Assembly: GCA_023128595.1 (NCBI GenBank)
Contig: JAGMDR010000026.1
Coordinates: 1 to 32,361, forward strand
DNA length: 32,361 nucleotides
Direction: 5' to 3'
From: Planctomycetota bacterium
GTDB taxonomy: Bacteria > Planctomycetota > Phycisphaerae > Sedimentisphaerales > Anaerobacaceae
Shown here: one piece after another, positions 5,601-23,110 of the stretch
Layout of the letters: the number at the start of each line of letters is the position of its first letter
Numbering within the stretch: the stretch's first letter is position 1
Translations under genes and position numbers: made by a program
Notes under the pieces: model-generated
Databases searched by the model: none
Told to the model about the DNA's origin: nothing
Seen by the model: the letters and a program-made list of their open reading frames with translations, nothing else

Positions 5601-8600
5601 TAAGGCCAGTAGTACCTGGCGACCGGGCTGGCCCTGTCGGCGGTCAAGCCCGTGCCGCGCGAATTTCCGGCGGTTCCAATAGCCGTCCTGCGACCGCCGG
5701 CAATCCGGGCCACCTTCACAGTCATACTGCCGGCGGAATGTAATGTCACCGTCCCGCTTTCGCGGGTAACATCGGCGGCCCGCACCAGAAGCAGTTGGAC
5801 GGATTTATCCGACGCCGGCAGCTCGCCCAGCCAGCGAACGGTAAGGACATATTGCTTTTCCGCCGGCCGGTGCAGACGCACTTCCACCAGATTGAACGAC
5901 TTGCCCTCGACGGTCCTTTCGCCGAGATTGCGATAATCGCGAATATTGGCGCCTTTGACTTCGGTCAGCGCGGCGCCCTTTGGCGCCAACAGGGTAAATC
6001 GGTCGTGCTCGCCCCCGGAGAAACTGTATGTAATCTTGCTTACGCCCACAATGGCCCAGTGAAAGGCGTACACATCGTGTGCCGAGGCGGCGGACAGCGT
6101 GCGGTCGGCGGCGCCGCCCCCGGCTTTGGGGAGCCAGCGCAACGTAAGGTCCCTGGTCATTCCCAGCGGAACCGTCCATTTGGTTGTACCGTTTGTTTTT
6201 TGTCGCGACGGCGCACTTTCGATTTGGTCAACCTCGAGCTCCAGGTCTTCCTGCGGCAGAACGACGTCCATCACGGCGCCGGGCAGGGGCGGCAGCGAGA
6301 ATTTCACACTGCCCCTTCGGCCGAAGTACTTGGGTTTTGCCACTGCCTTCAACTGCAACCGGCCGGATGTCCGGCCCGGCAGCATCAAAACCATGCCTTT
6401 GGCGCCGGCCTGCTTACTCTGTGTCTGTGGGAGGCTGTGCAATCGGGCAGGCTTGCCGTCGATGGTCGCCTCGGTCACCGCCAGGCCGGATATCGGCATA
6501 GGAAGAACCACCCAATCCCTGCCGTAAGTTTTGATATCGGCGGTCAGAACCACGTTCAGCCGCTCAGCTTCGACTGTCACGCTGTATTGAACAGCAGCCA
6601 GGGAGACATCGGTCCCCGGTCGCGGCCCGTCAATAGTATCTTCCGGATGCGCCTGGTTCCATAACTTGACAAAACGCGTGTATGGAATAAGGACCTTGTT
6701 GGAGTCTTCAGCCGCTGTGGGGTCTCCATCGTAGGGAATAATAAGAGGCTCTGATGCACTGTCGGCCAATTGAGCCATCGGTTTGGCCTGTGGTTGTGCA
6801 ACAGGCTGCTGGTTTTTCGCCGGCGCGGTTTCGGTCCGGGCGAGTTGCGCAGGCTCGGCCGCCTGGGCCGAGCAGCCAAAGCACAGTATAGAGACAAGCA
6901 GCACAGCAACCACTGCAGAAACGGGACTTACCGTGCCGGCCGGATGCAGCCTGGAGCATAACCACCGGATAAGAGCAACCAGCACATAAAGGGGGATGAG
7001 GCAAACGCCCGCTGTGAAGGCGCCGTTGGCGAAGTACGTCATCTCGGGCCGCCAGAGGGCCAGCAGAGACGCAACCGCCAAGACGGCGATAATCAGGATT
7101 GCCTTTGTTTTGCCCGGCTGCCGGACCAGTGCGATCCCGATAGCCGCTATCAGGACGAGTCCCACGGCCCAGCAGGAGGACATCCAGGCCGTTCTTGTCA
7201 GGCCGATGGTCAATTCTCCCGTGCCCAGGCCGGCAAACATGGCCCGCCGCCCGGCACCGGCGGTGGGCACCAAATCCACCGGCAATGTGAAACGCCCCCG
7301 CGCAACGAGCCTGACTCCCAAATCCCCCAGTACGGGCGGCTTAGCCACCTCGCGTTTGGCCGACCGACGACGCAGGTATGATTCCATCGGTTCGGCCGTC
7401 TTGGCCTCTTCCTTTTCAGCCGGCATTTCTGCCTTCGTGCGTATATCTTCTCCAAGGTCATACTCATACGAGACCGCGCCACCACCGGCAAAGTCCACCT
7501 TCTTGCCAAGGCGAGCTTCGGTGAACACAGGGACGAACAACAGGCCTGGAAATACGTTTTCGTGCAGATAGCGATAGAGTTGTAGATAGGCCGGGGCCGG
7601 TTGTCGCAAGTCGTGCGTCTGCATTTTTGTTTGCTGTGTCGTTATGCGATAGCCCGGCGGCGGGACGACAGTCCAGCTCATCTGGTTGATTTCCACGCCG
7701 GGAAGCTCAATGCCGCCCAGGTCCAGGCGTTCAAGATCGACCTGCGCCTCCCGGCAAGCATAAACGACCTTTACCGGGACCGGCTTTCCCAACTGCCCGA
7801 GGGTCACCTGGTAATCGCCGCCGGCGCTGCGCTGGGGCTTGACCGGCCTGCCGCTGACGCTCAGGGACCAAAGCTCTGCGCCGTCGGGCAGGCGGATAGT
7901 TAGAAACTGCCGACCGGCATTTGCAACCCGAAACGCCGCTTCGGTTCGCTGACCGCCCTTGACGTCGAGATATGTCGTCAACCGCACCGAAACCGCCAAT
8001 GCCGACGGAATCTCGTAGCTCTCGTGAACGTCGGTCTCGAGCATCAACGCCGTCGCCGAGCCGGTCGGCGTTGTGGCGGCATCCAGGCGGAACGCCCACA
8101 AGATGCGAGCGGCCTGGGCCGGAAGCGGCGGAAGGTCCACCGCATCAATCTCTTTGGCCCCGTCGGCTTTAATCTTAAGCGCCAGCTCCTCGCTGGCCTG
8201 GACCGCCAATTGCTCACTTATCTCGCCCCCGCATACCGGTCGCACCAGCGGTACATCGAAGCTCTTGTCAACGACGGGACGCTCATAATGTATATCGATT
8301 ACGACATTACCCAGACTGGAGTGATCGAGGTTCAACAGCCAGAGATTATAGCGCTGTGCCAATTCCTCCGAGAGGGGAATGGTTTTCTCATCCGGCTGTA
8401 CTATACTTTTCGAGTTGATGGGCACTGTTGTCGAAGCGATCTTGAATTCCTGTCCGAGTGACTTATCGGCGAGCAAATAGAGCCTTTTTGCAGAGGCCCT
8501 GGAGATAGCGTAGGTGATTCGCCAATCGGCAGAGAACTCGCGGGGCCGCACGGTAATCAGGGCGACGGCGTCGGCGGATTTTCGGGGTCGGCGCCGGGAG

Positions 8601-10411
8601 ACAAGCAGCTCAATGTTACCCTCTACAGCCGCGTTGTGACTGTAGGCATGCTGAACGTTTCCCGCCATGCCCAGTGACGCCATCCGGCCGACGGGCACCG
8701 GTTCGAGCTGGTCCGGCACCTTGTTCGGCTCTACGTCCAGGTCGCCCTCGGCCCAGAGAGAGACGTGGCCTGAAACAGTTTCGCCCTGTGATTGAATAAG
8801 CGGCACCGTGATGCTGCGTTGGGCGGCATCGCTGGGCCAGCGCCAGTCGGAGGGCACGTGCTGGGTTACGATAGTAACGTTCGCCGTTTTCTCCGGCTGG
8901 ATCGGTCGGGGCAATTCGATTTTCAGCAGGCGGCGGTCCGGCTGCTCTTCGATACGATATTCGAAGCCCGTTTGTTTTTTGTCAACCAGCACGGTCTTGA
9001 CCTGCCATTGACGGGCCGAGCCGCGGAGCACAAAAGACAGCTCGAAAAGCTCACGCTCAACAGCGGTTACCTCGAAATCGCCGGTCAAGGTTACCTGCTG
9101 CGGTGAAACGACGAGCTTTTGCTGCTCCTTAATGCTTCGCCTCAGCTCGACATCCACGAGCTCCAGATTCACCGACCAGTTATCGCCCCAGTGAAAATAC
9201 AAAGGCCCCGTCGAGCCGCTGACCAGACCGGGCACGGAGACCGCCGACAAAGCATCTTCTCGCCGGGCGCCGACGACCTTCTGGCCGCGGACACCAAGGG
9301 CCTCGTCCGTATTTACCATCAGGTAGCCTCGCTGGAAAGCAGCATCAACGAGGAGTATGCGCGGCGCGTCCCAGCTCTGGCCGGTGCGAACGGCGGTAGC
9401 CTTGATATGCAACGCCGTCGTGCCGACCTTGCCCGAGCGCAGACGCACGCTGAGCTTTTTGAGTCCTTTGGGCTCCTCTGCCGCATCAACAGACCATCTG
9501 ACGAGGCTCGGAGAGGTGACCTCGGTTACGGTCCAAGCCTGCGGGAGCTCGAATTGGAGCTGCCTTACGCCGCGGCGCAACACCTGCACGGTATAAAGAC
9601 AGCTCAATACCTGGTGCGACCTGGTCAAATTCACGGTGGCAGCCGACTCGCCCAGCAGAATCACGCGATCGTCTTCCTGACGACCGTTTCCGAGCATAAC
9701 CACCGTCAACTTGTCCTTTCCGCCGATGGTAAGCTCAACGCTGGTAAGGTCGGCCTGCTTGTCGTAAGAGGTCGCAGAAGCGGGCACGGTCGCGTGAATT
9801 TCCAGGTCGCCGGCGGCAGCGAGCTTTACTCGCCCGGCCACGGCCTGCGGCAGGGATATGCTGAACTGCGTGCCCCCGCTGGCAAGCTCGTTGACCTTCG
9901 TTGTGCCCGCGATTTCGAGCTGGTGCGTGCCTTTGGCCTGTACAATCAGCGTCAACCTTCCCTTTTTGTCGTAGCCCAACGGCGCGGGCGTACCGTCCAG
10001 AATCACGCGGCTCAGCCCTATCCCGGCAAAACCCAGCGGGACCGCCACCGGGCCTTTGCCGATGGATACCACCTCCAGTTTGCCGGTCAAAGTCAGCTCT
10101 TCGCCTGAGACTTTTCCGGTGTACTCGGCCCGCTTGACCTGCCCGAGCTCGAGGGTGTCGGCCTCTCGCTCGTTCTGCTCTGCTGCGGCAAGCAGCTTTT
10201 CGAATTCGGCTCGGTCCATCAGGACCGCTTTATCGGCCGGCTCAATCAAATGGACCAGGTCTTGATAGGGAACATACAGATTAGGTTTGAACTCATCGGC
10301 CCGGGCCGTGGAAATCAAGTACCCCGCCGCGACCACCGCAATCATCAACGTCGCTATCCTGCGGTATCCGGCAAAACGCGGTTCTCTCAGCCATTGTACT
10401 AAGTATCTCAT
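2633..10411 (-). CDS. Giant (2592 aa) secreted, membrane-anchored protein of unknown function, two fused modules
   Basis: Function not recognised. An N-terminal signal or anchor (about 18-38) is followed by a VPY motif (47-49) and a long beta-rich region with a TEVT motif (about 297) and a W-x4-PPGY motif (about 910). Then come three to four membrane spans (about 1075-1180), the last ending like a second signal peptide (SAQAAE). A second module follows: IPY (about 1243), TEVKGANI (about 1481), an LWS-PVKP motif (about 2013) and W-x4-PAGY (about 2095). It ends in a charged coiled-coil-like region (about 2150-2380), a Gly/Ala/Arg-rich linker and two or three C-terminal spans (about 2515-2580). 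The motif order and spacing match the 1112-aa protein encoded just upstream, so I read it as a fusion of two paralogous units. The gap to that gene is four bases, and AGGAG immediately before its TAG stop serves this start. Probably an envelope or surface-structure protein. Confidence 0.85.
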   Translation of the reverse strand: MRYLVQWLREPRFAGYRRIATLMIAVVAAGYLISTARADEFKPNLYVPYQDLVHLIEPADKAVLMDRAEFEKLLAAAEQNEREADTLELGQVKRAEYTGKVSGEELTLTGKLEVVSIGKGPVAVPLGFAGIGLSRVILDGTPAPLGYDKKGRLTLIVQAKGTHQLEIAGTTKVNELASGGTQFSISLPQAVAGRVKLAAAGDLEIHATVPASATSYDKQADLTSVELTIGGKDKLTVVMLGNGRQEDDRVILLGESAATVNLTRSHQVLSCLYTVQVLRRGVRQLQFELPQAWTVTEVTSPSLVRWSVDAAEEPKGLKKLSVRLRSGKVGTTALHIKATAVRTGQSWDAPRILLVDAAFQRGYLMVNTDEALGVRGQKVVGARREDALSAVSVPGLVSGSTGPLYFHWGDNWSVNLELVDVELRRSIKEQQKLVVSPQQVTLTGDFEVTAVERELFELSFVLRGSARQWQVKTVLVDKKQTGFEYRIEEQPDRRLLKIELPRPIQPEKTANVTIVTQHVPSDWRWPSDAAQRSITVPLIQSQGETVSGHVSLWAEGDLDVEPNKVPDQLEPVPVGRMASLGMAGNVQHAYSHNAAVEGNIELLVSRRRPRKSADAVALITVRPREFSADWRITYAISRASAKRLYLLADKSLGQEFKIASTTVPINSKSIVQPDEKTIPLSEELAQRYNLWLLNLDHSSLGNVVIDIHYERPVVDKSFDVPLVRPVCGGEISEQLAVQASEELALKIKADGAKEIDAVDLPPLPAQAARILWAFRLDAATTPTGSATALMLETDVHESYEIPSALAVSVRLTTYLDVKGGQRTEAAFRVANAGRQFLTIRLPDGAELWSLSVSGRPVKPQRSAGGDYQVTLGQLGKPVPVKVVYACREAQVDLERLDLGGIELPGVEINQMSWTVVPPPGYRITTQQTKMQTHDLRQPAPAYLQLYRYLHENVFPGLLFVPVFTEARLGKKVDFAGGGAVSYEYDLGEDIRTKAEMPAEKEEAKTAEPMESYLRRRSAKREVAKPPVLGDLGVRLVARGRFTLPVDLVPTAGAGRRAMFAGLGTGELTIGLTRTAWMSSCWAVGLVLIAAIGIALVRQPGKTKAILIIAVLAVASLLALWRPEMTYFANGAFTAGVCLIPLYVLVALIRWLCSRLHPAGTVSPVSAVVAVLLVSILCFGCSAQAAEPAQLARTETAPAKNQQPVAQPQAKPMAQLADSASEPLIIPYDGDPTAAEDSNKVLIPYTRFVKLWNQAHPEDTIDGPRPGTDVSLAAVQYSVTVEAERLNVVLTADIKTYGRDWVVLPMPISGLAVTEATIDGKPARLHSLPQTQSKQAGAKGMVLMLPGRTSGRLQLKAVAKPKYFGRRGSVKFSLPPLPGAVMDVVLPQEDLELEVDQIESAPSRQKTNGTTKWTVPLGMTRDLTLRWLPKAGGGAADRTLSAASAHDVYAFHWAIVGVSKITYSFSGGEHDRFTLLAPKGAALTEVKGANIRDYRNLGERTVEGKSFNLVEVRLHRPAEKQYVLTVRWLGELPASDKSVQLLLVRAADVTRESGTVTLHSAGSMTVKVARIAGGRRTAIGTAGNSRGTGLTADRASPVARYYWPYRPFALFVQLSRAVISPKVHLDQLVRVNTDRTELLVQAKLATEQGKLFGASFILPAGYELLSAVGPAVDNFYERSSDNRRFLHVKFHRGRQETTVALVLVRRDAPLEAFDVPLITYIDSAGPAPDQQGRVAVQVAASLEAKTIAGINLKAVVPGTLRDWLDSAQINSVQFAYRYEAPNPSLQLDIRPQPTRVRVETFVGLAVKPTAAVYTYRLRYNISGSPVDNLSFSLPNEYAPLVAVNSPALRTVTKSDSGAGRTTWKVALVNEVTGEVDIAVNFALPIDASTKLLRVPRLKTDAPAGYRAIIAVQNMSRHDISVKDKTKLADLAVSEQRKLMMSRRMTESLQYVFESFEDDWSLSLDFAPAKTAARIRAVVDLLALTTVIDRNGRCRYQARLALQNRSEQFLQVEVPQGLRLWSATVAFQPVKPVTTAASARGQILIPLVKTSPGGLPYDVYLYFADEQAGPLLEPLNGITKLRPPGISIVGIPVMRTTWSLRLPAGYRYMRPGGNMSPVAGTVEVLSLNIEAKLDQLKRLDKTYREVSVSAGRGQTIARRNWDVFNEKLNTDIEQAQSFLEANRRRVSDEDYERLSSQLRGQGLKQVTLITGNTAYIQEQQEQTRNDLNFFINATATNPGLAEVARNNALQQKPGFISEGEKRQIARLTKELEVSQKQLKVLRQEFTDFERSAEGVVVDADAVMVDTQHLIKGLGKGAKDLIVAGFDKNADVSEILNKLSEQSATQIDRKQAQLRHQLEELADNRLRRHFQAPEQMGQARQPQAKAKAPATIQPSSGITSQDQYTMEARGRASSSRHGGVVMHGGRDEAGARGSRALGVTAGGESKPAEPQVYYDAVAGPGAKPSTAAEGIQPYVAKGTYSLPVTLPEGEVRLDFARPAGQAQLSIWAVPLTTIHNLYATATIVVALLVALGIVKVWPNNRPSISVKRAIVYFLVFLVLTVAAGLLGLIISLAIIFAAETLRAASLRRKIAPAPN

Positions 10412-10415
10412 AGCG

Positions 10416-13400
10416 CTACTCCTGGTCCTGTTTTGACTGCTCCTGCTGCTTTTGGTCAGGAGGCTGCGGTTTTTGAGCGGTTTTGTTCTTGGGCTGCCGT
10501 TCTTTGGCCTTTTTGGCTTTCTGCGAAGCGGCCTGTCGCCGAGCAGCTAAACCCTCGCGCAATTGCGGAAGCGTCTTAAATGCCCATTGCCCCATCCATA
10601 ACAACAGCACAAGAATCCCGGCAAATAGGCCCACCTGCATCACTTTATCGACTAACAGCGGCAAATACAGGTGAATGATGCCGGCGATCAGTCCCGCCGC
10701 CAATATCACGAGAACACGATGGAAGCCGCCTAACTTGAGCATCAGGGCCCCGGCCCCAATGATCAGCACCCAGATAACTACGCTGAAAACCTCCTTGCCA
10801 ACCAGCAGAACCGACAATTCGCCCGGCGCGCCCTGCCGGACAAAATGAAGCTCTTTGCCCTGACCGGAGAGCTTGAAGTCAACCGAAGCGCCCTGTGCTT
10901 GCCGTAAGGTTCTCAACATCTCCAAGCCTTGGCCGGGCTCGAGCCGGGCAAAGACGCGGTCGTACCCGAGGAAACTGTAGTCCTCCGGAATCCACAGACG
11001 CCAGAGCGTCTGCTGGACCGGGATATCCCTGGGCAAAGCGGGTGCAACCAAATTGCGGGCCGAGACATCCTTGAGACCATAGGAAATTTCCAGGACAAAC
11101 TTCGAGACCTGTCCGGCCGAGGGGGGCAGGCGAACGATGCGCTCGTCCGGCTTGATGCCTATCTCTGTCGCAGCCTCATTACCATTCAAGAGCACCGCGG
11201 TAAGTTCGGCGTTCTCAGGCAGCGTGATGGACAGCCTGTCGCCCTGGCTGGTCGCCAGCAAGTAGGTGGCGTGCGTGTTGAGCATCCCGTCGCGGGCCAA
11301 GACCTGCTCGATAATCGCGCCGCTGACAATAGTGGTAAAGACGGTCGCTTCGGTTTGTGCAACCACCGGCAGTGACAGCGCAAAGACAGGTCCATCATAT
11401 TTGAAAGCCAGTGTAGCAAGCCTGCGATGAGGCTCATAAGGCAGGTCGGCGGGGCTGCCGGGGTCGGCGTCTTTCAGGTTCTTGCTGACCGGCCGGCCGA
11501 TGGCCAGGGTCTCGGCTTTTGCTATGGCGATGTGGCCGTTCTGGTCGGAAAGCCGTCCGGCTGCAAGGATCGGCTCGGCCTCGACAATCGCGGGCTCTCC
11601 CACACTGCCGGCCTGGAAGGGCCGACGCGTCCGGACCTTGAGCTGATAGCTGTCGGTTACCTTCGATTGCAGAACGATCTTGTAATATGCCCAATCGATG
11701 TCATCTGCTCCGGGGTCGTTGGGCTCGCCCCGCTGATCGGCGGGCAGCTCATCTATGCGCGGCTTTTCCTTGATGTTCGCGCCGTCTATATCTACACCGG
11801 CGTAAGCCAATTCAGCCGGCATCTTCAAATAGAATGTATCGATCGGGGCGTAGCGAATCCGGTATTGTATTACCGCTTCCTGCTCAATCGAGCCGGACTG
11901 AATATTCAGCAGCCGATGTACCGTAGCGGAGATCTGCACAGGCTTGGAATCGATCTCAAACTTTCCACCTGCCGGTTTGTCACGGTCGATAGCCCGAAAC
12001 TCGAACGCCATCGCCGGTGACAGCCCGGCTATCTTGGCCCACTTCTGGGCCTGTTTTAGTGGAATGGCCTGCAGTTGCTGCAAATCCTCGACCTGGGCCT
12101 GCAGCTCGTTGGGCAAAAGCAGCATTAATTGGCCCTGGTACAACTGTAAATCGTTGGCATCGGCCAACGGCAGCGCAAAATCAACCGGGTCCTCGGGATC
12201 CGCTCTCTCGGCGCGGGCAACCAATGTCAGGTCGAACTCGCCGGCCTTTTCTCTTTTAAGGAGTATGTGGAGTATGCGGGTGCGGCCGCTGCCTTTTAGC
12301 TGATAATCATCCACCAGGTCGCGCGGCTCAACCGATTCGAGCTTCCACGGTTCGGGCAGGTTCATGTTCAGCTCGAAAATACCGGTACGCTCAACCTTGT
12401 AATGAATTTTGCCGCGCAGCTCAAGCCGATCAATGTCGGCGCCCAACATCCAAAGCTGATTGACCGTGATGCGGGGCGAGGTGGTTTCAATCGCGATTGT
12501 ACCGCTGTAATCAGACGTAATAAACCGGTAGGCCGTTACGCCCGGCCGGCTCTGAAGGTTCTTCGGCAATTGGCCCGTGTCCACGCGCGCGAGGTTCTTG
12601 ACGTCCTCAAGGTGGACCGAGCGCCGCGGGGAGTACGTAATTCCGATCAGCCCGCTTCGCCTGAGCACCTGCTCGGTAGTTATCGGCGACAATGGAATCT
12701 TTGCCTGCGCCTCCTGGAGAAAACGCTCGGTTTTGATTGTGAGCGTATATTTGCCTTTCGCAGGCGAGAAAAGTCCTACTTTCAGCAGTTGTCCTTTTTT
12801 GTCGCCGGCCGTCTTCTCTGCCCGTATTATCTCCCATTTGGCAATGTTCGCGCCGGTAACATCGGTTATGCGAAACTCGCCGGGCAATTTTACGGTGAAC
12901 TCATCAACGCCTCCGCGATGAATACTGTAGTCGAGCCTGGTTTCATAACTGATGAGGGCTTCGCCAATGTTAATATGCTGGAATTGTTCACAGATAATGA
13001 CCGCCTCAAGCTCCGCGGCGGCCTCGGTTTTTGGCTTCCAGCTCAAGCGCACCTGCTGGGCCGAGCCGAGAAAAGCCTGAAGTTTAGTGGCCTTGGCCCC
13101 CTCAACTTCCACCTGTGATGTCGTCGCCGCCAGCATCGGTTGTACGTCCACCTTGAGATTCTCTTCGGGGATCAGCAGATCGAGGGTAGTTATTGCAGCC
13201 GAGGGTATGCGGAAACTCAGGATGGCCAATCCGGGCTGGGTTTCGAGCTGGCGAACAAAGTCCAGCGCGAGCACGTAGCGCCCCTTGCCCTTGGTCACAA
13301 AGATGTACTGACCTTTCTCCACCCGCAGCAGTGGCACAACATTGGCATCTTCGGTTGCGGCATGAGCGACTGCGACCTCGCCCAGGCCGATGGGCACCTG

Positions 13401-13754
13401 GACCCAGCCGTCGCTTAGGATGTCAATCGTAAGCTCCAGCCGCAAGGTGGCGAGCTCACCCTCGACTTTGCCGTCGAACCTCGCCGTGCTTACGAGATAT
13501 TCAAACGGGGCTTCGGACACACCGGCCGGCTTGCCCTGGGCGGCCCGCCAGAGCTTCTGGAACTCCTTGTAGGGTAGAAACACACCCTGATCGGCCTTCT
13601 CAAAAACCCCCTTGAGCTCCTCATAAGGCACATACACCTTGGTTGGTGTGTTAGTTTCTTTCTTCTGGTCACCCTCGGCGGCGATGCCTGCAGAGACATG
13701 AGCGAAACTAAGACCGCACAAAACGGCAATAATGGTAAAACGTACACTGTTCAT
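10416..13754 (-). CDS. Large (1112 aa) secreted beta-rich protein with C-terminal membrane bundle, paralogue of the giant protein
   Basis: Function not recognised. It has an N-terminal signal peptide (about 5-26), then the motif KVYVPYEEL (VPY at 42-44) followed by a second LPY and an EFQKLW helix. A long region of predicted beta-sandwich character contains TDVTGANI (about 295) and W-x4-PEDY (about 915). Three hydrophobic spans follow (about 985-1058), and the tail is rich in K, Q and P and presumably cytoplasmic. The same landmarks recur at nearly the same residue numbers in the first half of the downstream 2592-aa protein. AAGGAGA at 13768-13762, seven bases before the ATG, fixes the start. 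It is first of a two-gene unit with a 287-bp leader region upstream. The topology suggests an envelope-spanning or surface-scaffold role, but this is inferred from architecture only. Confidence 0.85.
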   Translation of the reverse strand: MNSVRFTIIAVLCGLSFAHVSAGIAAEGDQKKETNTPTKVYVPYEELKGVFEKADQGVFLPYKEFQKLWRAAQGKPAGVSEAPFEYLVSTARFDGKVEGELATLRLELTIDILSDGWVQVPIGLGEVAVAHAATEDANVVPLLRVEKGQYIFVTKGKGRYVLALDFVRQLETQPGLAILSFRIPSAAITTLDLLIPEENLKVDVQPMLAATTSQVEVEGAKATKLQAFLGSAQQVRLSWKPKTEAAAELEAVIICEQFQHINIGEALISYETRLDYSIHRGGVDEFTVKLPGEFRITDVTGANIAKWEIIRAEKTAGDKKGQLLKVGLFSPAKGKYTLTIKTERFLQEAQAKIPLSPITTEQVLRRSGLIGITYSPRRSVHLEDVKNLARVDTGQLPKNLQSRPGVTAYRFITSDYSGTIAIETTSPRITVNQLWMLGADIDRLELRGKIHYKVERTGIFELNMNLPEPWKLESVEPRDLVDDYQLKGSGRTRILHILLKREKAGEFDLTLVARAERADPEDPVDFALPLADANDLQLYQGQLMLLLPNELQAQVEDLQQLQAIPLKQAQKWAKIAGLSPAMAFEFRAIDRDKPAGGKFEIDSKPVQISATVHRLLNIQSGSIEQEAVIQYRIRYAPIDTFYLKMPAELAYAGVDIDGANIKEKPRIDELPADQRGEPNDPGADDIDWAYYKIVLQSKVTDSYQLKVRTRRPFQAGSVGEPAIVEAEPILAAGRLSDQNGHIAIAKAETLAIGRPVSKNLKDADPGSPADLPYEPHRRLATLAFKYDGPVFALSLPVVAQTEATVFTTIVSGAIIEQVLARDGMLNTHATYLLATSQGDRLSITLPENAELTAVLLNGNEAATEIGIKPDERIVRLPPSAGQVSKFVLEISYGLKDVSARNLVAPALPRDIPVQQTLWRLWIPEDYSFLGYDRVFARLEPGQGLEMLRTLRQAQGASVDFKLSGQGKELHFVRQGAPGELSVLLVGKEVFSVVIWVLIIGAGALMLKLGGFHRVLVILAAGLIAGIIHLYLPLLVDKVMQVGLFAGILVLLLWMGQWAFKTLPQLREGLAARRQAASQKAKKAKERQPKNKTAQKPQPPDQKQQEQSKQDQE

Positions 13755-14041: not shown

Positions 14042-15601
14042 TTAGTCTTTGAATGCCAGCGCTCCGGTCGGGCACGCTTCTACGCACCGGCTCGCGGCGT
14101 TTTGGAGACCTTCGGCTATTGAACGGTCGAACGGCACGGCCACTCTGACATCGAAGCCCCGGCCGATAAAGGTCAGCCCGAGTTTTTCACCGGCTTCGGC
14201 GGCAATCTGAATGCAAAGGCCGCAGTCAATACACTTGCCCGATTCATAAATCAGCTCCGGGTGTTGCAGTTGCTGAGCAAACAAGCGTCTCGGTCCCTGG
14301 TATCGGGTGGCTCGGGCGTCATATTCCTTTGCATACCGCCTCAATTTGCAGCTTTGAGGCTTACGGCAGTCACAGTGCAGACAACGGGCCGCTTCGTCGC
14401 GCGCCTGCTCGTCGGAAAAGCCGCCGTCTTGGGCTGTCGGCGTTACACGATGTGAGTGGCCGGCGTTGGCAAGAAAGACTTCGATCTCGCCGTCTTTTAG
14501 CCTGCCGATGCGAGTGTTGAAGGGCCTGGCCGGCCCGGTTACCGGCTGGCCGGACAGATATTGGCCTATCGAGGCAGCGGCTTCTTTGCCGTCAGCGACG
14601 GCTCGAACCGTGAGCTTGCGCCTGCGTACAGCGTCACCGCCGGCGAACACGCCGGGCAGATTCGTTTGGTAAGTTCCCGCATCCACAGCAATTCCCTTCT
14701 GGCCCGTCTCGAGGCCCATTGCCTCGGCGTCACCGGGCTTTAGTCCTCCAACCGCCAGAAAAACCGCATCGAAATCCTTTCGCAAATCGGCCATCGACAG
14801 CGCTGCACCAATTGTCGTTTGCCCCCGGAATTCAACGCCCAATTTTATAATCAAAGCTATTTCTTTGTCGAGCACCTCGCGGGGCAGCTCATCGGCGGGA
14901 ACTGCATACCGCAGCATTCCGCCGGGCTCTTCGTGGTCGTCGAAGAGCGTGCAATCGAAGCCATTCTGCTGCAAATAATAAGCAGCCGCTAATCCTGCCG
15001 GACCGGCCCCGACAATAGCGACGCGCTTGCCTCGCTTCGGCTTGCACTGCGGCGAATAGGGCAATGCAGATTCCAGGTCAACATCGGCAACGTAACGCTT
15101 CAACAAACAGATTGAAACAGCATCGTCGAATGCCGCCCGCCTGCAGGACCGCTCGCAGGGTTTCGGACAAATCCGCCCCAACACCGCGGGCAGCGCAATA
15201 TCCTTCTTGACCGTGGCAATCGCATCACGGAGCTTCCCGGCTGCAATCTGCCGAATCATCAGGGGAATGTTCATCCGGGCCGGGCACGTCGTCTGACACG
15301 GCCCCATACAGTCGCCCAGGTGGTCGCTCAAGAGCAGCTCCAAAGCCGCCTTTCTTGCCTCGCGGACCTGGTCCGAATTAGTCCGGACCCGCATACCATC
15401 TCCGGCAATAGTCCCGCAAGCCGGCACGAGCGCGCTTTGACCCTCGACCTTGACCGCACAAACCATACAACTCGTTGATGGCTTATGCCCTTTTAGAAAA
15501 CACATCGCGGGTATCTCGATCCCCAGTTTCCCGGCGGCATCAAGGATGGTTGCGTTATCCGCCACCTCAACTTCACGATTGTCGATTGTCAGTCTTGGCA
15601 T
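14042..15601 (-). CDS. [2Fe-2S]-GltD-like flavoprotein oxidoreductase lacking the NAD(P)H domain, with C-terminal ferredoxin domain
   Basis: 519-aa cytoplasmic Fe-S flavoprotein. Residues 1-80 are a NuoG/HydA-type [2Fe-2S] domain with perfect spacing, C34-x10-C45-x2-C48-x13-C62. A His and Cys cluster (H94, C98, C102, C106) leads into the GltD/dihydropyrimidine-dehydrogenase-type Fe-S helical domain with CPKPCERSC. The FAD motif GAGPAGLAAAYYL starts near 195 and the closing FAGGD is near 314. Canonical GltD proteins have a second Rossmann fold, for NADPH, between these; here only about 120 residues separate them and no second GxGxxG/A is present. The C-terminus adds CIDCGLC (about 454) and CVEACP (about 507). 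It is encoded 24 bp after the NuoEF fusion and so probably takes electrons from it. A GTG at 15613 is an alternative start. It resembles the third subunit of electron-bifurcating (Stn/Bfu-type) complexes but should not itself bind NADPH. Confidence 0.85.
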   Translation of the reverse strand: MPRLTIDNREVEVADNATILDAAGKLGIEIPAMCFLKGHKPSTSCMVCAVKVEGQSALVPACGTIAGDGMRVRTNSDQVREARKAALELLLSDHLGDCMGPCQTTCPARMNIPLMIRQIAAGKLRDAIATVKKDIALPAVLGRICPKPCERSCRRAAFDDAVSICLLKRYVADVDLESALPYSPQCKPKRGKRVAIVGAGPAGLAAAYYLQQNGFDCTLFDDHEEPGGMLRYAVPADELPREVLDKEIALIIKLGVEFRGQTTIGAALSMADLRKDFDAVFLAVGGLKPGDAEAMGLETGQKGIAVDAGTYQTNLPGVFAGGDAVRRRKLTVRAVADGKEAAASIGQYLSGQPVTGPARPFNTRIGRLKDGEIEVFLANAGHSHRVTPTAQDGGFSDEQARDEAARCLHCDCRKPQSCKLRRYAKEYDARATRYQGPRRLFAQQLQHPELIYESGKCIDCGLCIQIAAEAGEKLGLTFIGRGFDVRVAVPFDRSIAEGLQNAASRCVEACPTGALAFKD

Positions 15602-17993: not shown

Positions 17994-19763
17994 TCAAGGC
18001 TCCTGTGTTGTCTCTTCTTTACCTATGCAATAGAGATTCTCTACTCCTCGTATGTAGATGCGGCCATCCACAAAGGCCGGCGAGGCGCAGCATTCCTCGC
18101 CCAGCTCACACCTGGCCAGCTCGTTATATTTTGGCAAGACCTCGGCAATTATCATAATGCCCTTCTCGGTAAGCAGATACAGCTTATCACCAACAAGACT
18201 TGGCGAAGCGAGAAAGCTGTCTCTGCCCTCACCTATATCCTCCTCCCAGAGTTTCTCACCGTCGGCAGCCTTAAAGCAGAGCGCCAATCCGTCGGAGTTC
18301 AGTATGAAGACAAACTCACCGTTGCCAATCGGACTGCAAATATCGGGAGCGGGCTCATCGAGGCTCCAGGCGATGTGCGTCTTAGTGACGTCACCCTTGC
18401 CGTCGGTCCGTATCGCAACTGTTTTGCTGTATGGCTCTATGACAAATGTCAGTCCGTTGGCATAGATTGGAGTCGGTGCGACGTCGCCTGCCAGGCATTC
18501 GGCCCGCCAGATTTCGGCACCGCTGTTAGGTTCGTATGCTATTACCCAGGGGTCGGCGGCGGTGATTATCTGGGGCCCGCTGTCGGTCCGGGCCACTATC
18601 GGCGTACTCCAGGAATTCGCAACCGGGCGTTTGGCCTGCCACACGACCCGGCCGGAGAATCCATCCAAGGCTATCAGCTTGGACTTTTCGGACTCGGTGT
18701 CTCCCTGGTCATACTGAATTAAAAGCAGGTTACGATACATCTCGAGCGAAGAGGCATAGCCATAGACATTGTCCGGCGTGCCCAGATTCTTAGACCAGAA
18801 ACTTCGTCCGGAAAAGTCGAAACAGGCCAGATCACCGGTTACAAAGATTGCAAAAACTCGTTTGCCGTCCGTTGTGACGGTGGGGGCGGCCCAGCCTGTG
18901 TCCTCCATCACTTCAACCGGCTCTTCGTTGGGCTTGAGCGGGGCCCTCTTGACGTCGCCGGTCCACAAAAGCTCGCCCGAAAGCGCATCAAAGCAAAATA
19001 CGTTGAGCCGGTTTGGGTCACCGCCTGAGAGGAAAAGGCGGTCGCCCCAGACAACAGGTGAATTATGCCCGGCGACCGGCACCTTAGTTTTCCAGAGAAT
19101 CCCTTTTCCCGATTTGCCGTCCCAGCTCTCGGGCATGTTTACATCAGCGCTAATCCCAGCCCCTTCGGGCCCGCGGAAGCGATGCCAGTTCCGACTAATC
19201 TTCTCCGGCGTCGGATATGAATCGGCTGCTGCATCGGTCGCGCGAAAGTCAATGCGGGGGCCTATTGCAAGAAACAGCATCACCGCCCCGGCCAGCCCCA
19301 AAGCAGCAGCCACGGACCACCGGGCCAGCATGGCCTGGCGGATTTGCTCGGAAGCCGCGCCCTGCTGGGGCTGCGGCGCCGGCATTTTCTCCTTGAAGGT
19401 ACCCGCCCACTTGATGCCAATGACGAATACCGACAGAGAAGCCAGGAGCAGGTAGCTGCCTGTGCGGGAAAAATCCAGCACTCGAAACATCGCCCGCCTG
19501 AACTCCAGGTCCAAACGGCGAATCTCCTCTAACAAGGCCTGCTCATCGTCAGGCTGGTTGCTAATTTCTATCCTCAGATTCTCCAGTTTCTTTTCCCATC
19601 TCGTCTCGTGCACGCGGCCCCGAATGTAATTTCCAACGATAAGTGCAAGTACAATGACGGAGAACACCGCGCCGACTAAGGCCGTGGCGACCGCGCTTCG
19701 GTGCCACGCGCTCACAGCCTGAACGTCCCCGGAAGTGTTGTTATCAGGAGATTTCATCTTCAA
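17994..19763 (-). CDS. Membrane-anchored PQQ-like (BamB-like) beta-propeller protein with three N-terminal spans
   Basis: 589-aa protein. Hydrophobic spans lie at about 23-46, 102-120 and 148-168, with a charged, helical segment (about 52-92) between the first two. From about 195 a beta-propeller begins with WHRFRGPEGAG and contains repeated blades of the type L-x-C/A-x-D-x2-SGELLW and WQAKRPV. The blades are of the PQQ-enzyme/BamB family. I see none of the paired cysteines or the heme CxxCH motif of PQQ alcohol dehydrogenases, so a structural or binding role is as likely as catalysis. The propeller should face the periplasm. The start is TTG at 19763, overlapping the TGA of the polyferredoxin gene as TTGA, with AAGG seven bases upstream; an ATG two codons later (19757) is the alternative. 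Its position between a polyferredoxin and the diaphorase suggests a part in the same complex. Confidence 0.85.
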   Translation of the reverse strand: MKMKSPDNNTSGDVQAVSAWHRSAVATALVGAVFSVIVLALIVGNYIRGRVHETRWEKKLENLRIEISNQPDDEQALLEEIRRLDLEFRRAMFRVLDFSRTGSYLLLASLSVFVIGIKWAGTFKEKMPAPQPQQGAASEQIRQAMLARWSVAAALGLAGAVMLFLAIGPRIDFRATDAAADSYPTPEKISRNWHRFRGPEGAGISADVNMPESWDGKSGKGILWKTKVPVAGHNSPVVWGDRLFLSGGDPNRLNVFCFDALSGELLWTGDVKRAPLKPNEEPVEVMEDTGWAAPTVTTDGKRVFAIFVTGDLACFDFSGRSFWSKNLGTPDNVYGYASSLEMYRNLLLIQYDQGDTESEKSKLIALDGFSGRVVWQAKRPVANSWSTPIVARTDSGPQIITAADPWVIAYEPNSGAEIWRAECLAGDVAPTPIYANGLTFVIEPYSKTVAIRTDGKGDVTKTHIAWSLDEPAPDICSPIGNGEFVFILNSDGLALCFKAADGEKLWEEDIGEGRDSFLASPSLVGDKLYLLTEKGIMIIAEVLPKYNELARCELGEECCASPAFVDGRIYIRGVENLYCIGKEETTQEP

Positions 19764-21106
19764 CTGATTGCCTTGTCTTTCTTGCTAAGCCTCAGGCGTT
19801 CCCTGGGGCAGTGCTTGAAACATCGGCCGCAGGCCAGGCAGCCGGCCCTATCGGCCTCGTAATCCGTCCTTTGACGCCAGACGGAGACGGCGGTGAGCTT
19901 GACGCCGATCACGAGTCCCATAAATCCGCCGAGAAGCCAGCCGCCAATAGCGAACTGCCCGCGGACGCCTGAAGCCTCTTCGTAAAGGTCTTTGACTTCT
20001 CGGCCTGTTGCTCTAAAAGCTAAGCTGGCATCCGTAGTCCCTTCAACTTCGCCCGCTTCTTCCAGGTAGATGCGCTCGGCCAATCGGACCGTCGAATGCA
20101 TCCGGGACGTTACGTTTTTGAACCGGGCGCCGGCCCACCCACAAAAAAGTATCAGAACAGGCAGCAGAAGAATCAACAACGCCAGTGTCTTTTTGCCTCT
20201 AACATACTCGGTGGCAGACCATTCGTCCGCGGGCTTTCTGATAGCGCCAAAAGGACAGGCATCCTCACACAGCCTGCACCCAATGCACTCATCGGGCGTG
20301 ATAGTTACGCGCCATCTCGAGAGGCGTGAAAGCTGCCTGAGAATCACACCATAGGGACAGAAGAACCGGCAGTAAGGGCGCCCTATGAACAGGCCCACCA
20401 CGAGGAAGCAGGCCCCGATTATCAGGATGTTCAGATTACCACTCAGGCGGAAAAATGAAACAAACGGGTCATATCTGCATATCAAAAACGCGCTGCCCGT
20501 GGCAGCAAAGAGGACCGCCAGGCCCAGGTAGAGGTAGGCAAAGACCCGCAGACCGCTCGCCAGCCAGTCGGGCACCGAGACCGGACGCAGCAGAACCAAA
20601 TCCTGGATCGCGCCGAGGGGACAAACGGCCGAACAAAAGACCCTACCGAAGAAAAGCGTAAATATAAGCGGCAGCAGGAAAAAGGCCGAAACCGTAATCG
20701 GCACCGCATAGTCGCGGTCAAAAATCGACAGAACAATGTTCTGAATCGCGCCTATGGGACAGACGCAGCCTTTCCGCCAGAAGCCGAAATAGACCAGCGA
20801 GAACACCATCAGAACAAATATCGCCCGCCGGCTGCGCATCTTCAAAACCAGGTATGAGGCCAGGATGAGCGCTGCCAGAAGGACCGCAACATCTATATAT
20901 TCGTAGATACTCTGGCGTGGATGAGGGGCAGCAGGGCTGGGCGGCAGATCATAGCCGCTTTCAAATTCGGGCGGCGGAAAGCGTTGCGGCGCGGCTATCT
21001 TGGCCGTGTTTTCACGGGCTGGAAGCCCGTGCCGACCTGATACAACCGCGCACAGGTTCACAACGACGGCTGTGGCGATTATGATATGGCCGAAGCGTAT
21101 CATCAA
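19760..21106 (-). CDS. NapH/NosR-like membrane polyferredoxin
   Basis: 448-aa integral membrane protein with about eight hydrophobic spans. It carries the paired membrane-edge motifs typical of the NapH/NosR/CcoG group: CVCPIGAIQN, CSAVCPLGAIQD and CRFFCPYGVI. A soluble-type ferredoxin motif CIGCRLCEDACPFGAI follows, and a final CLACGRCFKHCP is near the C-terminus. Such proteins pass electrons between a quinol or cytoplasmic donor and periplasmic Fe-S partners. It overlaps the preceding Tat ferredoxin gene by 4 bp (ATGA) and the next propeller gene at its stop, indicating translational coupling. Longer than NapH (about 290 aa) because of a central extension with a Glu-rich loop and an extra last span. 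An interspersed hairpin repeat (21013-21031) is translated inside residues 26-31, in the loop after the first span. Confidence 0.9.
   Translation of the reverse strand: MMIRFGHIIIATAVVVNLCAVVSGRHGLPARENTAKIAAPQRFPPPEFESGYDLPPSPAAPHPRQSIYEYIDVAVLLAALILASYLVLKMRSRRAIFVLMVFSLVYFGFWRKGCVCPIGAIQNIVLSIFDRDYAVPITVSAFFLLPLIFTLFFGRVFCSAVCPLGAIQDLVLLRPVSVPDWLASGLRVFAYLYLGLAVLFAATGSAFLICRYDPFVSFFRLSGNLNILIIGACFLVVGLFIGRPYCRFFCPYGVILRQLSRLSRWRVTITPDECIGCRLCEDACPFGAIRKPADEWSATEYVRGKKTLALLILLLPVLILFCGWAGARFKNVTSRMHSTVRLAERIYLEEAGEVEGTTDASLAFRATGREVKDLYEEASGVRGQFAIGGWLLGGFMGLVIGVKLTAVSVWRQRTDYEADRAGCLACGRCFKHCPRERLRLSKKDKAIS
21013..21031. repeat. 19-nt hairpin repeat (8-bp stem, GGA loop), inside the polyferredoxin gene
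   Basis: CACGGGCT/GGA/AGCCCGTG is a perfect 8-bp stem with a 3-base loop. It belongs to the same family as the repeats at 21881-21935, 22985-23055, 23111-23129 and 24560-24578. It is translated in frame as HGLPAR shortly after the first membrane span of the polyferredoxin. Bases 21003-21012 on its left (GCCGTGTTTT) resemble the linker and arm of a second hairpin, as if this were a decayed twin copy. Confidence 0.75.
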
Positions 21107-21669
21107 GCGTGGCCCACCTTCTTAAGTATGTAAGGCCTCTCTGCGGGAACACGCTTGAATGCCCCTGAAGGACAAGCTGCAGCAATGGAACATTCATTGC
21201 AATTCAAGCAGCGATCGTGACGTACCTGAAGAAACAGCGCGCCGTTGCCGAAAGTCATGCAGCCTTTGACGCATTTGCCGCAGCCGATACATAATGATTC
21301 GTCAATCGTGTACTCGTAATAGGGGTCCTCGATATACTTTCGCTTTATCGCGCCGGTAGGACAGCTTTGATTCTCCGCTCCCTCGGTGATGTCATAGGGT
21401 TCGGGCTCGAAGAAGCCGAAACATATCTCGCAGTATCCGCAGATTTCAAAATCGTGCGTACACTTAACCGCGGACTCTTCCAGCACACACCGTGTCGCAC
21501 AGTTGCCGCAGGCAATGCATATATTCGGATCAATCTGCCAGAGAGTACGGGTCTTTCCAAGCCTGCCTGCCAATAAGCCTGCCAATCCACCGAGGCCGGC
21601 CAAACAGGTCCCAAAAAAACCATTTCTTAGCAAATTACGTCTGGAAATATCGTTCTTATTCTCAGCCAT
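21103..21669 (-). CDS. Tat-exported ferredoxin with four [4Fe-4S] sites (NapG/DmsB-like)
   Basis: 188-aa electron-transfer protein. The N-terminus has a twin-arginine motif (SRRNLLRNG, 9-17) and a Gly/Leu-rich hydrophobic segment up to about residue 35, so it should be exported folded and may stay anchored. Four cysteine sets follow: C51-x2-C-x2-C-x3-C; C77/C80/C83 with C103 (CPTG); C127-x2-C-x2-C-x3-C; and C154-x2-C-x2-C-x5-C166. That gives about sixteen ligands for four clusters, as in NapG and DmsB-type subunits. The second set has a long insert, with an FGFFEPEP stretch between C83 and C103. It overlaps the polyferredoxin gene by four bases, the usual NapG-NapH pairing, so the two most likely form one electron-transfer unit. 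Confidence 0.9.
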   Translation of the reverse strand: MAENKNDISRRNLLRNGFFGTCLAGLGGLAGLLAGRLGKTRTLWQIDPNICIACGNCATRCVLEESAVKCTHDFEICGYCEICFGFFEPEPYDITEGAENQSCPTGAIKRKYIEDPYYEYTIDESLCIGCGKCVKGCMTFGNGALFLQVRHDRCLNCNECSIAAACPSGAFKRVPAERPYILKKVGHA

Positions 21670-21672
21670 CGT

Positions 21673-21957
21673 TTATTCTTTCAAATTCTCCTTTGCAGAC
21701 GAAGCCCGTGGCAGACGGCACGTCTCGAAAAGCTCGCAGCCCTTACAGAGTCCGTCATTGATGCAAATACCTTCTCGCATTAACCTGTATCTTTTGGCAA
21801 GAAGTGAGCCTGCCCCCGCACACAAGAGCGCCAAAGAGGCGTACCTCAGCGCGCCAATAAACAACTGCCGACGGCTCGCTGTGGCATCGGCATCCTGCCG
21901 ATGATTTCGAAAACACGGGCAGGATGCCCGTGCTACATTTTCAAAACGGCTGCCCAT
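21673..21957 (-). CDS. Small Tat-type membrane-anchored four-cysteine protein
   Basis: 94-aa protein, family not recognised. A twin-arginine motif SRRQLF (28-33) precedes a hydrophobic segment (about 34-53). The mature part is short and contains C65-x5-C71-x2-C74-x5-C80, followed by RLPRAS, a compact pattern that could bind an Fe-S cluster or another metal. Residues about 8-26 are translated from the twin-hairpin repeat at 21881-21935, so the n-region before the Tat motif is unusually long. Its ATG overlaps the TAA stop of the NHL gene (TAATG), and the Tat ferredoxin gene starts three bases after its own stop. The operon position and export signal suggest that it serves the periplasmic side of the ferredoxin/polyferredoxin unit. 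Confidence 0.75.
   Translation of the reverse strand: MGSRFENVARASCPCFRNHRQDADATASRRQLFIGALRYASLALLCAGAGSLLAKRYRLMREGICINDGLCKGCELFETCRLPRASSAKENLKE
21881..21935. repeat. Twin-hairpin (REPIN-like) repeat, copy 1, inside a coding region
   Basis: Two 19-nt hairpins, CATCGGCA/TCC/TGCCGATG (21885-21903) and CACGGGCA/GGA/TGCCCGTG (21914-21932), are separated by 10 bp and flanked by GTGG and CTAC. The two hairpins are near reverse complements of one another (15 of 19 positions) and their loops are complementary. The whole element is translated in the N-terminal part of the 94-aa Tat-type protein. Confidence 0.85.
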
Positions 21958-23078
21958 TATCCTGCCTTTTTCCTGCTATAGACTCTGACAAGGTTCTTAA
22001 CGGTGTCCAGCACGAAAACACGCCCTTTGGCATCGACGGCAATGTCGAAACCTACGGCCTGACCCTGGGCGGGGAATTCGCAAACGGCGGCGGCACCGCC
22101 TTCGATTAATTGCTCGGGCCCGGCCACGACACCGGCGAAAACACCCTCCACATCGTAAATCTTGACCCTTATCAGGCCCTTTTCACAGGTGACAAAACTT
22201 TCATCTTCAAGTATGGCGAAATTCACCGGATTGCAGCACCCGCAGAAGCCTTCCACACTCCGCGAGAACTGGCCCCAGTAAAACTCAAGATCACCATCGA
22301 ACGTGTAGGCTTCAATACGATGCCGTCCGGGATTGACCACTCGCAGCAGTCCGTCACGGGCAACTGCAAGGTCGAAATAAGGACTCCGTATCACGAAACC
22401 CGGAATATTCCTGTCCTCATCTCTGGCGCCGATGCGGTTGATTAACTTGCCCGCGGTATCATAGTGCAGGACAATGCGATTGCCGGCATCGGCGACAAAC
22501 ACATCATTTTTCGAGACGGCTATACTTGTCAAAACAGCCTTTTCACCAAGACTGTCCCAGGTTGCCAGTTGATTGCCTTGTCTTTCATAGACTTCGACGT
22601 GGTTTCTCATCCCAATGTATATCTCGCCGGCCTGCGAGACCGCCAGAGATCTCGGCTTATCTGTCAGTTGCACCTTACCGACCAGATTGCCGGTTTCGCC
22701 GAACATGTGAACGGCCTTGTCTCCGGCCACGTAAAGGGACCCCTCCGGGCCCACTACAATAGCGCTTGAACCGGCAAAGCCGGTACTGATTGGCCGGCCC
22801 GATTCTTCGTACAGAATCAGGTTCGGGTCAATCTTCGCCATGTCTTTAATATCATAGGTGAACTGTTTTCCAAGACCGCTGCCGCTTTCGCCCGTCACGT
22901 CAAGCCGCCACACGGCCACAACGCAAATAATAATAGCCACTCCAACGAGCAGCCCCACCAATACGTTTTCCGTTGTCGCTCCCGGTGGCACGGCCTTCGT
23001 AGCATCGGCATCCTGCCGATGATTTGGAAAAACACGGCCAGGATGGCCGTGCCACAAATCGATCTCATTTCTTACCAT
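21957..23078 (-). CDS. Membrane-anchored NHL-repeat beta-propeller protein
   Basis: 373-aa protein. A single hydrophobic span (about 39-57) anchors a periplasmic domain made of NHL-type blades, with repeated patterns such as GPEGSLYVA, SKNDVFVADAGNRIVLHYD, ARDGLLRVVNPGRHRIEAYTF and DAKGRVFVLDTVKNLVRVYS. A cysteine cluster FCGCCNP sits in the loop of one blade (about residues 275-281), with further single cysteines nearby (VTCEKG and VCEFP). No heme-binding CxxCH is present. The twin-hairpin repeat at 22985-23055 is translated across residues about 9-31, before the span. I chose the ATG at 23078; a GTG at 23096 is in frame, and both have poor ribosome sites. A start downstream of the repeat (TTG near residue 40) cannot be excluded. 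Encoded directly before the exported Fe-S proteins. Confidence 0.85.
   Translation of the reverse strand: MVRNEIDLWHGHPGRVFPNHRQDADATKAVPPGATTENVLVGLLVGVAIIICVVAVWRLDVTGESGSGLGKQFTYDIKDMAKIDPNLILYEESGRPISTGFAGSSAIVVGPEGSLYVAGDKAVHMFGETGNLVGKVQLTDKPRSLAVSQAGEIYIGMRNHVEVYERQGNQLATWDSLGEKAVLTSIAVSKNDVFVADAGNRIVLHYDTAGKLINRIGARDEDRNIPGFVIRSPYFDLAVARDGLLRVVNPGRHRIEAYTFDGDLEFYWGQFSRSVEGFCGCCNPVNFAILEDESFVTCEKGLIRVKIYDVEGVFAGVVAGPEQLIEGGAAAVCEFPAQGQAVGFDIAVDAKGRVFVLDTVKNLVRVYSRKKAG
22985..23055. repeat. Twin-hairpin (REPIN-like) repeat, copy 2, with extra outer stem
   Basis: The hairpin CATCGGCA/TCC/TGCCGATG (23003-23021) is identical to that of copy 1, and CACGGCCA/GGA/TGGCCGTG (23033-23051) is its partner, 11 bp apart. 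An additional arm, GTGGCACGGCC at 22985-22995, pairs perfectly with GGCCGTGCCAC at 23045-23055, giving an alternative long stem. The spacer is one base longer than in copy 1, so the partner hairpin is read in a different frame while HRQDADAT is shared. It lies inside the NHL gene. Confidence 0.85.
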
Positions 23079-23110
23079 TTCTGCACTCAAAATCACACAA
23101 AATCCAATTA

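Follow-up and report, generated by a model that had tools for sequence, protein, structure and literature searches.

A StnC/BfuA-like iron-sulfur flavoprotein without an NADPH domain is encoded with NuoEF and NapGH-like proteins in Planctomycetota and other phyla

Results

Gene content of the locus

The window, by which we mean the whole 32,361-nucleotide stretch of Planctomycetota DNA analysed here, carries on its minus strand a run of genes that, from 24548 down to 14042, encode PQQ23, NHL, NapG, NapH, PQQ17, a NuoE-NuoF-ferredoxin fusion and a 523-aa protein that lacks an NADPH domain (Table 1). In this last protein Pfam places Fer2_4, Fer4_20 and a split Pyr_redox_2, in that order, ahead of the C-terminal Fe-S region. 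The cysteines C38, C49, C52 and C66 of the [2Fe-2S] domain are invariant in the alignment of homologues, and K172 aligns with the cluster-ligating lysine of StnC, which can ligate the FAD-proximal cluster (PMC10482914). A GltD-type FAD domain with GxGxxG and FAGGD is present, as are, as in BfuA, predicted Fe-S clusters leading to BfuBC. The closest PDB relatives are 9bov_A, 8oh5_C (StnC) and 9n5u_A, all of them NADPH subunits of electron-bifurcating transhydrogenases. The initial annotation had described a GltD-like protein that gained a NuoG-type [2Fe-2S] domain and a ferredoxin domain; we rejected this description because StnC/PRK12814 proteins already possess both Fe-S domains. Judged by its sequence, the 523-aa protein is a BfuA/StnC homologue from which the catalytic domain has been deleted.

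Table 1. Features of the operon and of the 523-aa protein (window coordinates)
Feature	Position	Strand	Remarks
PQQ_2/BamB-like propeller (PQQ23), N-terminal hydrophobic segment	23160..24548	-	
Membrane-anchored NHL-repeat protein, invariant CCNP	21957..23096	-	
NapG-like multi-cluster ferredoxin, RR (Tat-type) N-terminus	21103..21669	-	
NapH-like polytopic membrane Fe-S protein, hydrophobic insertion between two ferredoxin motifs	19760..21106	-	
Membrane-anchored PQQ_2/BamB-like propeller (PQQ17), three hydrophobic segments	17994..19763	-	
Fused NuoE-NuoF with C-terminal 2x[4Fe-4S] (BfuC-BfuB), 783 aa	15626..17977	-	
NADPH-less StnC/BfuA-like Fe-S flavoprotein, 523 aa	14042..15613	-	Conserved ATG at 15601
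NuoG-type [2Fe-2S] domain, Fer2_4, residues 7-80	15374..15595	-	Pfam
Two-cluster GltD/DPD domain, Fer4_20, residues 104-181	15071..15304	-	Pfam, PDB alignment
FAD domain, first half, residues 193-293, GxGPAG at 202	14735..15037	-	
Junction lacking ~130 residues of NADPH Rossmann domain, residues 294-304	14702..14734	-	
FAD domain, second half, residues 305-356, FAGGD at 323	14546..14701	-	
C-terminal Fe-S region, two cluster motifs, residues 411-514	14072..14383	-	

The NADPH domain has been excised

The 523-aa protein can be aligned end to end with StnC except for about 130 residues, which make up the NADPH Rossmann domain: with phmmer, residues 8-293 correspond to StnC 6-290 and residues 298-520 to StnC 441-672, and against 9bov_A the phmmer alignment leaps from 291 to 424. 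Only one GxGxx[GA] occurs, the FAD motif, at residue 202, and FAGGD follows at 323 (198 and 319 if numbering begins at the conserved ATG at 15601, the start that the initial annotation also used); the spacing of 121 residues agrees with the roughly 120 given in that annotation. A motif search of the protein found no second GxGxx[GA], Pyr_redox_2 was matched by Pfam as split ends only (residues 261-342 on model positions 208-291), and neither Pfam nor the AlphaFold model contained another Rossmann domain. The model (alignment of 9 rows) has a mean pLDDT of 74; confidence is high for residues 1-350, and most of the chain past residue 360 is of low confidence. When the model is fitted to NfnB (5jfc_L), its two-cluster and FAD domains (residues 100-355) match chain positions 44-472, with 255 residues aligned at 1.8 A (Z 30.1) and some 170 residues of the NfnB chain bypassed. 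As a within-genome control, the GltD-like ORFs L002, L004, L005 and L006 space the two FAD motifs by 272-296 residues; a second GGGxxA lies between the motifs in L002, L005 and L006, the search pattern did not match one in L004, and L003 has the second motif and no FAGGD within the part read.

We conclude from the alignment jump, the skipped chain residues and the single GxGxx[GA] that the NADPH domain has been excised and that the FAD fold has closed over the gap. Motif search, Pfam, phmmer and the model thus all bear out the domain loss that the initial annotation had proposed. Assembly error or chance can be rejected, because 117 loci share the deletion.

The FAD domain is under purifying selection in the window lineage

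In the window protein GxGPAG, GG and FAGGD are intact. Of 17 pairs from the window lineage, 16 gave a dN/dS of 0.07-0.18 for the FAD domain, similar to the values of the Fe-S domains, and one was saturated; several dS values exceeded 1 and are rough estimates. We conclude that the FAD domain of this lineage is not decaying and is held by purifying selection. Across the wider family the arginine equivalent to StnC R239, which contacts FAD (PMC10482914), is kept in 5/5 Stn rows, in 3/4 full-length rows linked to NapGH or PQQ17 and in 14/99 NADPH-less rows, and the final FAD motif retains its Asp in 39 of the 99 NADPH-less rows; both the arginine contact and this last motif have relaxed. Because the NADPH domain is gone and the arginine is mostly lost, a GltD-type transhydrogenase role for the 523-aa protein would hardly be possible, as the initial annotation had also suggested.

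The NuoEF core

Cluster cysteines of BfuBC are largely retained across the family, and outside the B2 site the window fusion has all of them, in the BfuC [2Fe-2S], core [4Fe-4S] and two C-terminal [4Fe-4S] motifs. Three cysteine positions within fusion residues 182-221 match the B2 [2Fe-2S] site of StnB, and two of them hold Ser in the window protein; the three cysteines are kept in 86%, 100% and 80% of 50 NADPH-less rows. A ligand switch at the bifurcation site is possible, and bifurcation by the window complex is uncertain because its NuoF deviates at two of these positions. Other cysteines (182, 184 and 187) lie near the window B2 site, and that at 187 is an extra Cys found in nearly all NapGH-linked rows.

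Distribution of the NADPH-less form

Among the fetched loci, counted after removal of second copies and whether or not NuoF adjoined, 117 were NADPH-less; they belong to Planctomycetota, Bacteroidota and Verrucomicrobiota. At E<=1e-60, 83 of 148 related genomes were matched; class- and phylum-level searches matched 123/397 and 53/392 genomes, counts that include other GltD proteins. An order-level search around a Prolixibacteraceae genome (103/247 genomes) and a phylum-level search around a Verrucomicrobia genome (73/240) matched mostly full-length forms, and the gap point was crossed in one piece by about 30 and 14, respectively, among the matches listed.

NuoE-NuoF lies directly upstream, at a median distance of about 10 bases, in 100 of the 110 loci (of 117) that could be evaluated by having at least 1.2 kb of upstream sequence. 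The deletion is conserved, and its association with NuoEF has 10 exceptions (L060, L146, L153, L168, L181, L188, L203, L206, L213 and L214). NADPH-less genes with no NuoEF nearby are seen, for example, at L153:7904-9397, L168:4231-5940 and L060:10001-11539.

A conserved operon with a NapGH-like membrane module

The initial annotation had not considered the NapG/NapH membrane module and the upstream propeller genes, which we regard as the likely partner. The gene order of the window is identical in other families (for example L038, L044, L050, L052 and L057) and at a Prolixibacteraceae locus (L061), and from NapG onward also at a Verrucomicrobia locus (L078). Among the NADPH-less loci that could be evaluated, the membrane propeller was present in 50/64, NapH in 49/61, NapG in 47/59 and NHL in 40/50. 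Since 12 of 61 have no NapH upstream, NapGH may not be the sole partner; L054, L211 and L216, for example, consist of NuoEF and the NADPH-less gene alone.

NapG is a multi-cluster ferredoxin with a Tat-type RR pair and predicted export; over 52 rows the two arginines are kept at 0.98 and 0.94 and the cysteines of its four cluster motifs at 0.96-1.00. NapH is polytopic, with CxxxCP pairs and two ferredoxin motifs, and its cysteines are invariant in 48 rows. Because matches to the NCBIfam napH models fall below the curated cut-offs, the window protein is best described as a divergent NapH member. At the thresholds used, NapG, NapH and the membrane propeller had no PDB sequence match, and the NHL protein matched a few NHL/propeller entries. 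Across 43 rows the NHL protein keeps an invariant CCNP with EK and K behind it, possibly a cofactor or vicinal-disulphide site. No FMN-binding domain or ApbE was detected by Pfam in the window operon.

In L150 (3258-5018) and L151 (11018-12754) NapH and NuoE form one open frame, both parts of which are seen by Pfam and NCBIfam. The two genomes share one family code (f15) and perhaps represent one event, and the carriers are full-length relatives that retain the NADPH domain, not NADPH-less forms. Among the hints of a joint function of NapH and the NuoEF core, this fusion is the strongest. By eye, the interval from NapH to NuoE in L152 resembles the N-terminal TM-coil-TM part of the propeller gene without the propeller.

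In window-type NapH the two ferredoxin motifs are separated by an insertion (residues ~300-420) that contains two hydrophobic segments; in L150, L151, L152 and L157 the motifs adjoin. A strict coupling of NADPH-domain loss with a gained membrane propeller and NapH insertion was rejected, since in L157, which lacks the NADPH domain, the membrane propeller is absent and NapH is short.

Directly downstream of the operon are ORFs 2633-10411 (2592 aa) and 10416-13754 (1112 aa), neither of which Pfam matches at E<=0.01. Upstream, 24581-28584 encodes an FtsX/MacB-like permease and an ABC ATPase; the Bacteroidales locus L060 has homologues of both, placed a few kilobases downstream of its NADPH-less gene.

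A reduction series among relatives

Of the 118 aligned rows, 99 lack the NADPH domain alone, 10 lack both the NADPH and the FAD domain, and 9 retain the NADPH domain; of these 9, 5 are Stn-like and have no NapGH, and 4 are linked to NapGH or the membrane propeller. Without the requirement for an adjoining NuoF, 13 FAD-less loci were counted, and Pfam found no flavin domain in L143 and L145. It can be seen that the NADPH-site motifs are GGGNTA and YRR in L152, that GDGQEA (L150) and GAGQEA (L151) stand without YRR, and that L175 has an NADPH domain with neither motif. At the position of the StnC lysine, 98/99 NADPH-less rows have K, H or E and the 10 FAD-less rows all have M, L or I; 6 of these 10 are also without cysteines of the two GltD-type clusters; the [2Fe-2S] motif and both C-terminal cluster motifs are retained in the FAD-less rows. 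In L149, L202, L217, L218 and L219 the FAD domain is eroded, being shortened with motifs lost, and not deleted. The stages thus seem to run from an intact NADPH domain, through degenerate motifs, to loss of that domain and then also of the FAD domain. Because outer ligand and cluster residues are lost while the [2Fe-2S] and C-terminal motifs are kept, we conclude that the arm for NADPH electrons has been trimmed from its outer end and the wire to FMN retained. FAD is probably dispensable to the operon system, because most neighbouring operon genes remain at the 13 loci where the FAD domain is gone.

In the NuoF tree the NapGH-linked rows form one clade (100/100), from which L152 branches off first, followed by L150/L151. 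A single origin of the NADPH-domain deletion is not supported: L175 groups with the NADPH-less L165 and L215 (100/93), and this calls for at least two deletions or a regain. Losses of the FAD domain amounted to three to five changes in the bootstrap trees, the starred branches forcing only one, and the bootstrap is not settled on this number.

Menaquinone and complex I markers in carriers

Among 25 near-complete carrier genomes (at least 95% complete), 17 had neither MqnA/MqnD nor MenD over the cut-off and 8 had a menaquinone-pathway marker. In 11 of these 25 genomes the NapGH operon itself was observed, and 7 of the 11 had neither marker. UbiA was dropped as a quinone marker, as it was present in 28/28 genomes and 14/14 controls. 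Full-length matches to the complex I 49-kDa subunit occurred only in G608, G775, G155, G428, G168, G360, G182 and G239. Because 17 of the 25 lack both menaquinone markers, quinone is unlikely to be a general partner; alternative pathway genes or a scavenged quinone are possible.

Discussion

In Bfu enzymes, NAD(H) and ferredoxin are coupled to a third substrate, for which BfuA is the entry point (PMC9304861). We consider it reasonably probable that the window encodes a Bfu-family (NADH/ferredoxin) complex in which NADP(H) has been replaced, most likely by the membrane module of the same operon as third partner; NapGH is the candidate because NADP(H) is excluded and the operon offers NapGH. The 523-aa protein would be the BfuA of a complex that has abandoned NADP(H), with the BfuC-BfuB fusion as its FMN-based NADH/ferredoxin core; the NADPH domain of the protein has been removed, and the chain of clusters leading to the FMN core is preserved. 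The third partner would most likely be NapH in the membrane and NapG outside it, together with the propeller and NHL proteins, and electrons would pass from NADH (perhaps with reduced ferredoxin) to FMN, the BfuA clusters, NapH, NapG and a periplasmic acceptor, or possibly in reverse. The window lineage may keep FAD as an exposed relay or docking site, and another Planctomycetota family has dropped it. While the deletion and its conservation, the operon, the core cluster residues, selection on the FAD domain and the NapH-NuoE fusion of relatives are observed, we infer the existence of a physical complex in the window organism, the electron direction, the acceptor and the FAD occupancy. The initial annotation had suggested an electron-relay FAD subunit fed by NuoF; the NuoF part agrees with the adjacency in 100 of 110 loci, and a general relay function of FAD fits poorly with its loss in 13. 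More hesitantly, we raise the idea that these operons form an undescribed, quinone-independent and membrane-linked 'Nap-Bfu' class that exports NADH/ferredoxin electrons across the inner membrane to a periplasmic acceptor, having passed stepwise from an NADPH enzyme to a bare Fe-S wire. Equally tentatively, the class would span Planctomycetota, Bacteroidota and Verrucomicrobiota, its propeller and NHL proteins would handle the acceptor, and a NuoG-like outcome would have been reached independently.

Other explanations must be weighed. By analogy with the proposed Nuo-Bfu, NapH could be a quinone site and the complex a small NADH(/ferredoxin):menaquinone oxidoreductase: E. coli NapH is regarded as the quinone-binding subunit (PMC8238504), Nuo-Bfu is a proposed menaquinone user (PMC9304861) and 8 of 25 near-complete carriers have a menaquinone marker. 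The 17 carriers with no marker, and the 7 of 11 with the NapGH operon that have none, make this unlikely. It is just as doubtful that the enzyme is soluble, NapGH being a mere neighbour and the exposed FAD serving another small substrate or protein such as ferredoxin, flavodoxin or a thiol protein. Purifying selection on the window-lineage FAD domain and the loci with NuoEF and the NADPH-less gene without NapGH would fit; against it stand the 13 FAD-less loci, most of them with the operon, the NapH-NuoE fusion and a gene order retained across three phyla.

Those FAD-less loci, the eroded domains of L149, L202 and L217-L219 and the Asp kept in just 39 of 99 final motifs could instead mean that the FAD domain is vestigial, without a ligand and in the course of being lost, the protein serving only as an Fe-S wire; given the intact GxGPAG, GG and FAGGD and the low dN/dS of the window lineage, we think this improbable. 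That the protein is still an NADP(H) enzyme, binding NADPH elsewhere in its chain or owing its gap to misassembly, is scarcely credible in the face of no second GxGxx[GA], no other Rossmann domain and 117 loci with the deletion.

Stn/Nfn-Bfu (StnABC, 8oh5; Caldicellulosiruptor NfnABC, 9bov; Thermococcus sibiricus NfnABC, 9n5u) shares with the window system the NuoE/NuoF partners and the cluster-ligating lysine, and the N-terminal 675 residues of its large subunit have the domain order and cluster motifs of the 523-aa protein. The window system differs in having no NADPH domain and no FdhF-like C-terminal half, in the FAD-contact Arg, which is mostly replaced, in the fusion of BfuC to BfuB and in its NapGH/propeller operon. 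The membrane-bound Nuo-Bfu and Mbh-Bfu (PMC9304861) likewise join a BfuABC core to a membrane module as third partner; their membrane arms are complex I-like or hydrogenase-like, whereas the window has NapGH and propeller proteins, and the words NapH and PQQ are absent from the main text of that paper. In the NapGH and NapH-like systems (PMC8238504), a NapH-type Fe-S protein moves electrons across the membrane with modular partners; in the window the cytosolic partner would instead be a Bfu core, and the FMN-binding domain and ApbE have no Pfam match.

We found neither a NapGH-linked Bfu operon nor a GltD-like protein with a deleted NADPH domain in the open-access literature; the conserved operon, the reduction series, the NapH-NuoE fusion and the 17 of 25 carriers without both menaquinone markers are new. 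As the catalytic arm in this one operon is found intact, decayed, deleted and doubly deleted in different living relatives, the minimal subunit that wires a bifurcating core to the membrane becomes directly testable. The system also offers a possible route by which organisms that lack menaquinone and complex I markers could exchange NADH/ferredoxin electrons with the membrane or periplasm, a gap for these mostly uncultured groups. DvTRi (PMC5627308) and FFTR (6gnd) are two-domain flavoproteins that no longer use NADPH, with a motif decay like that of L150, L151 and L175; they keep a pseudo NADPH domain without the binding residues, whereas in the window protein the domain is deleted.
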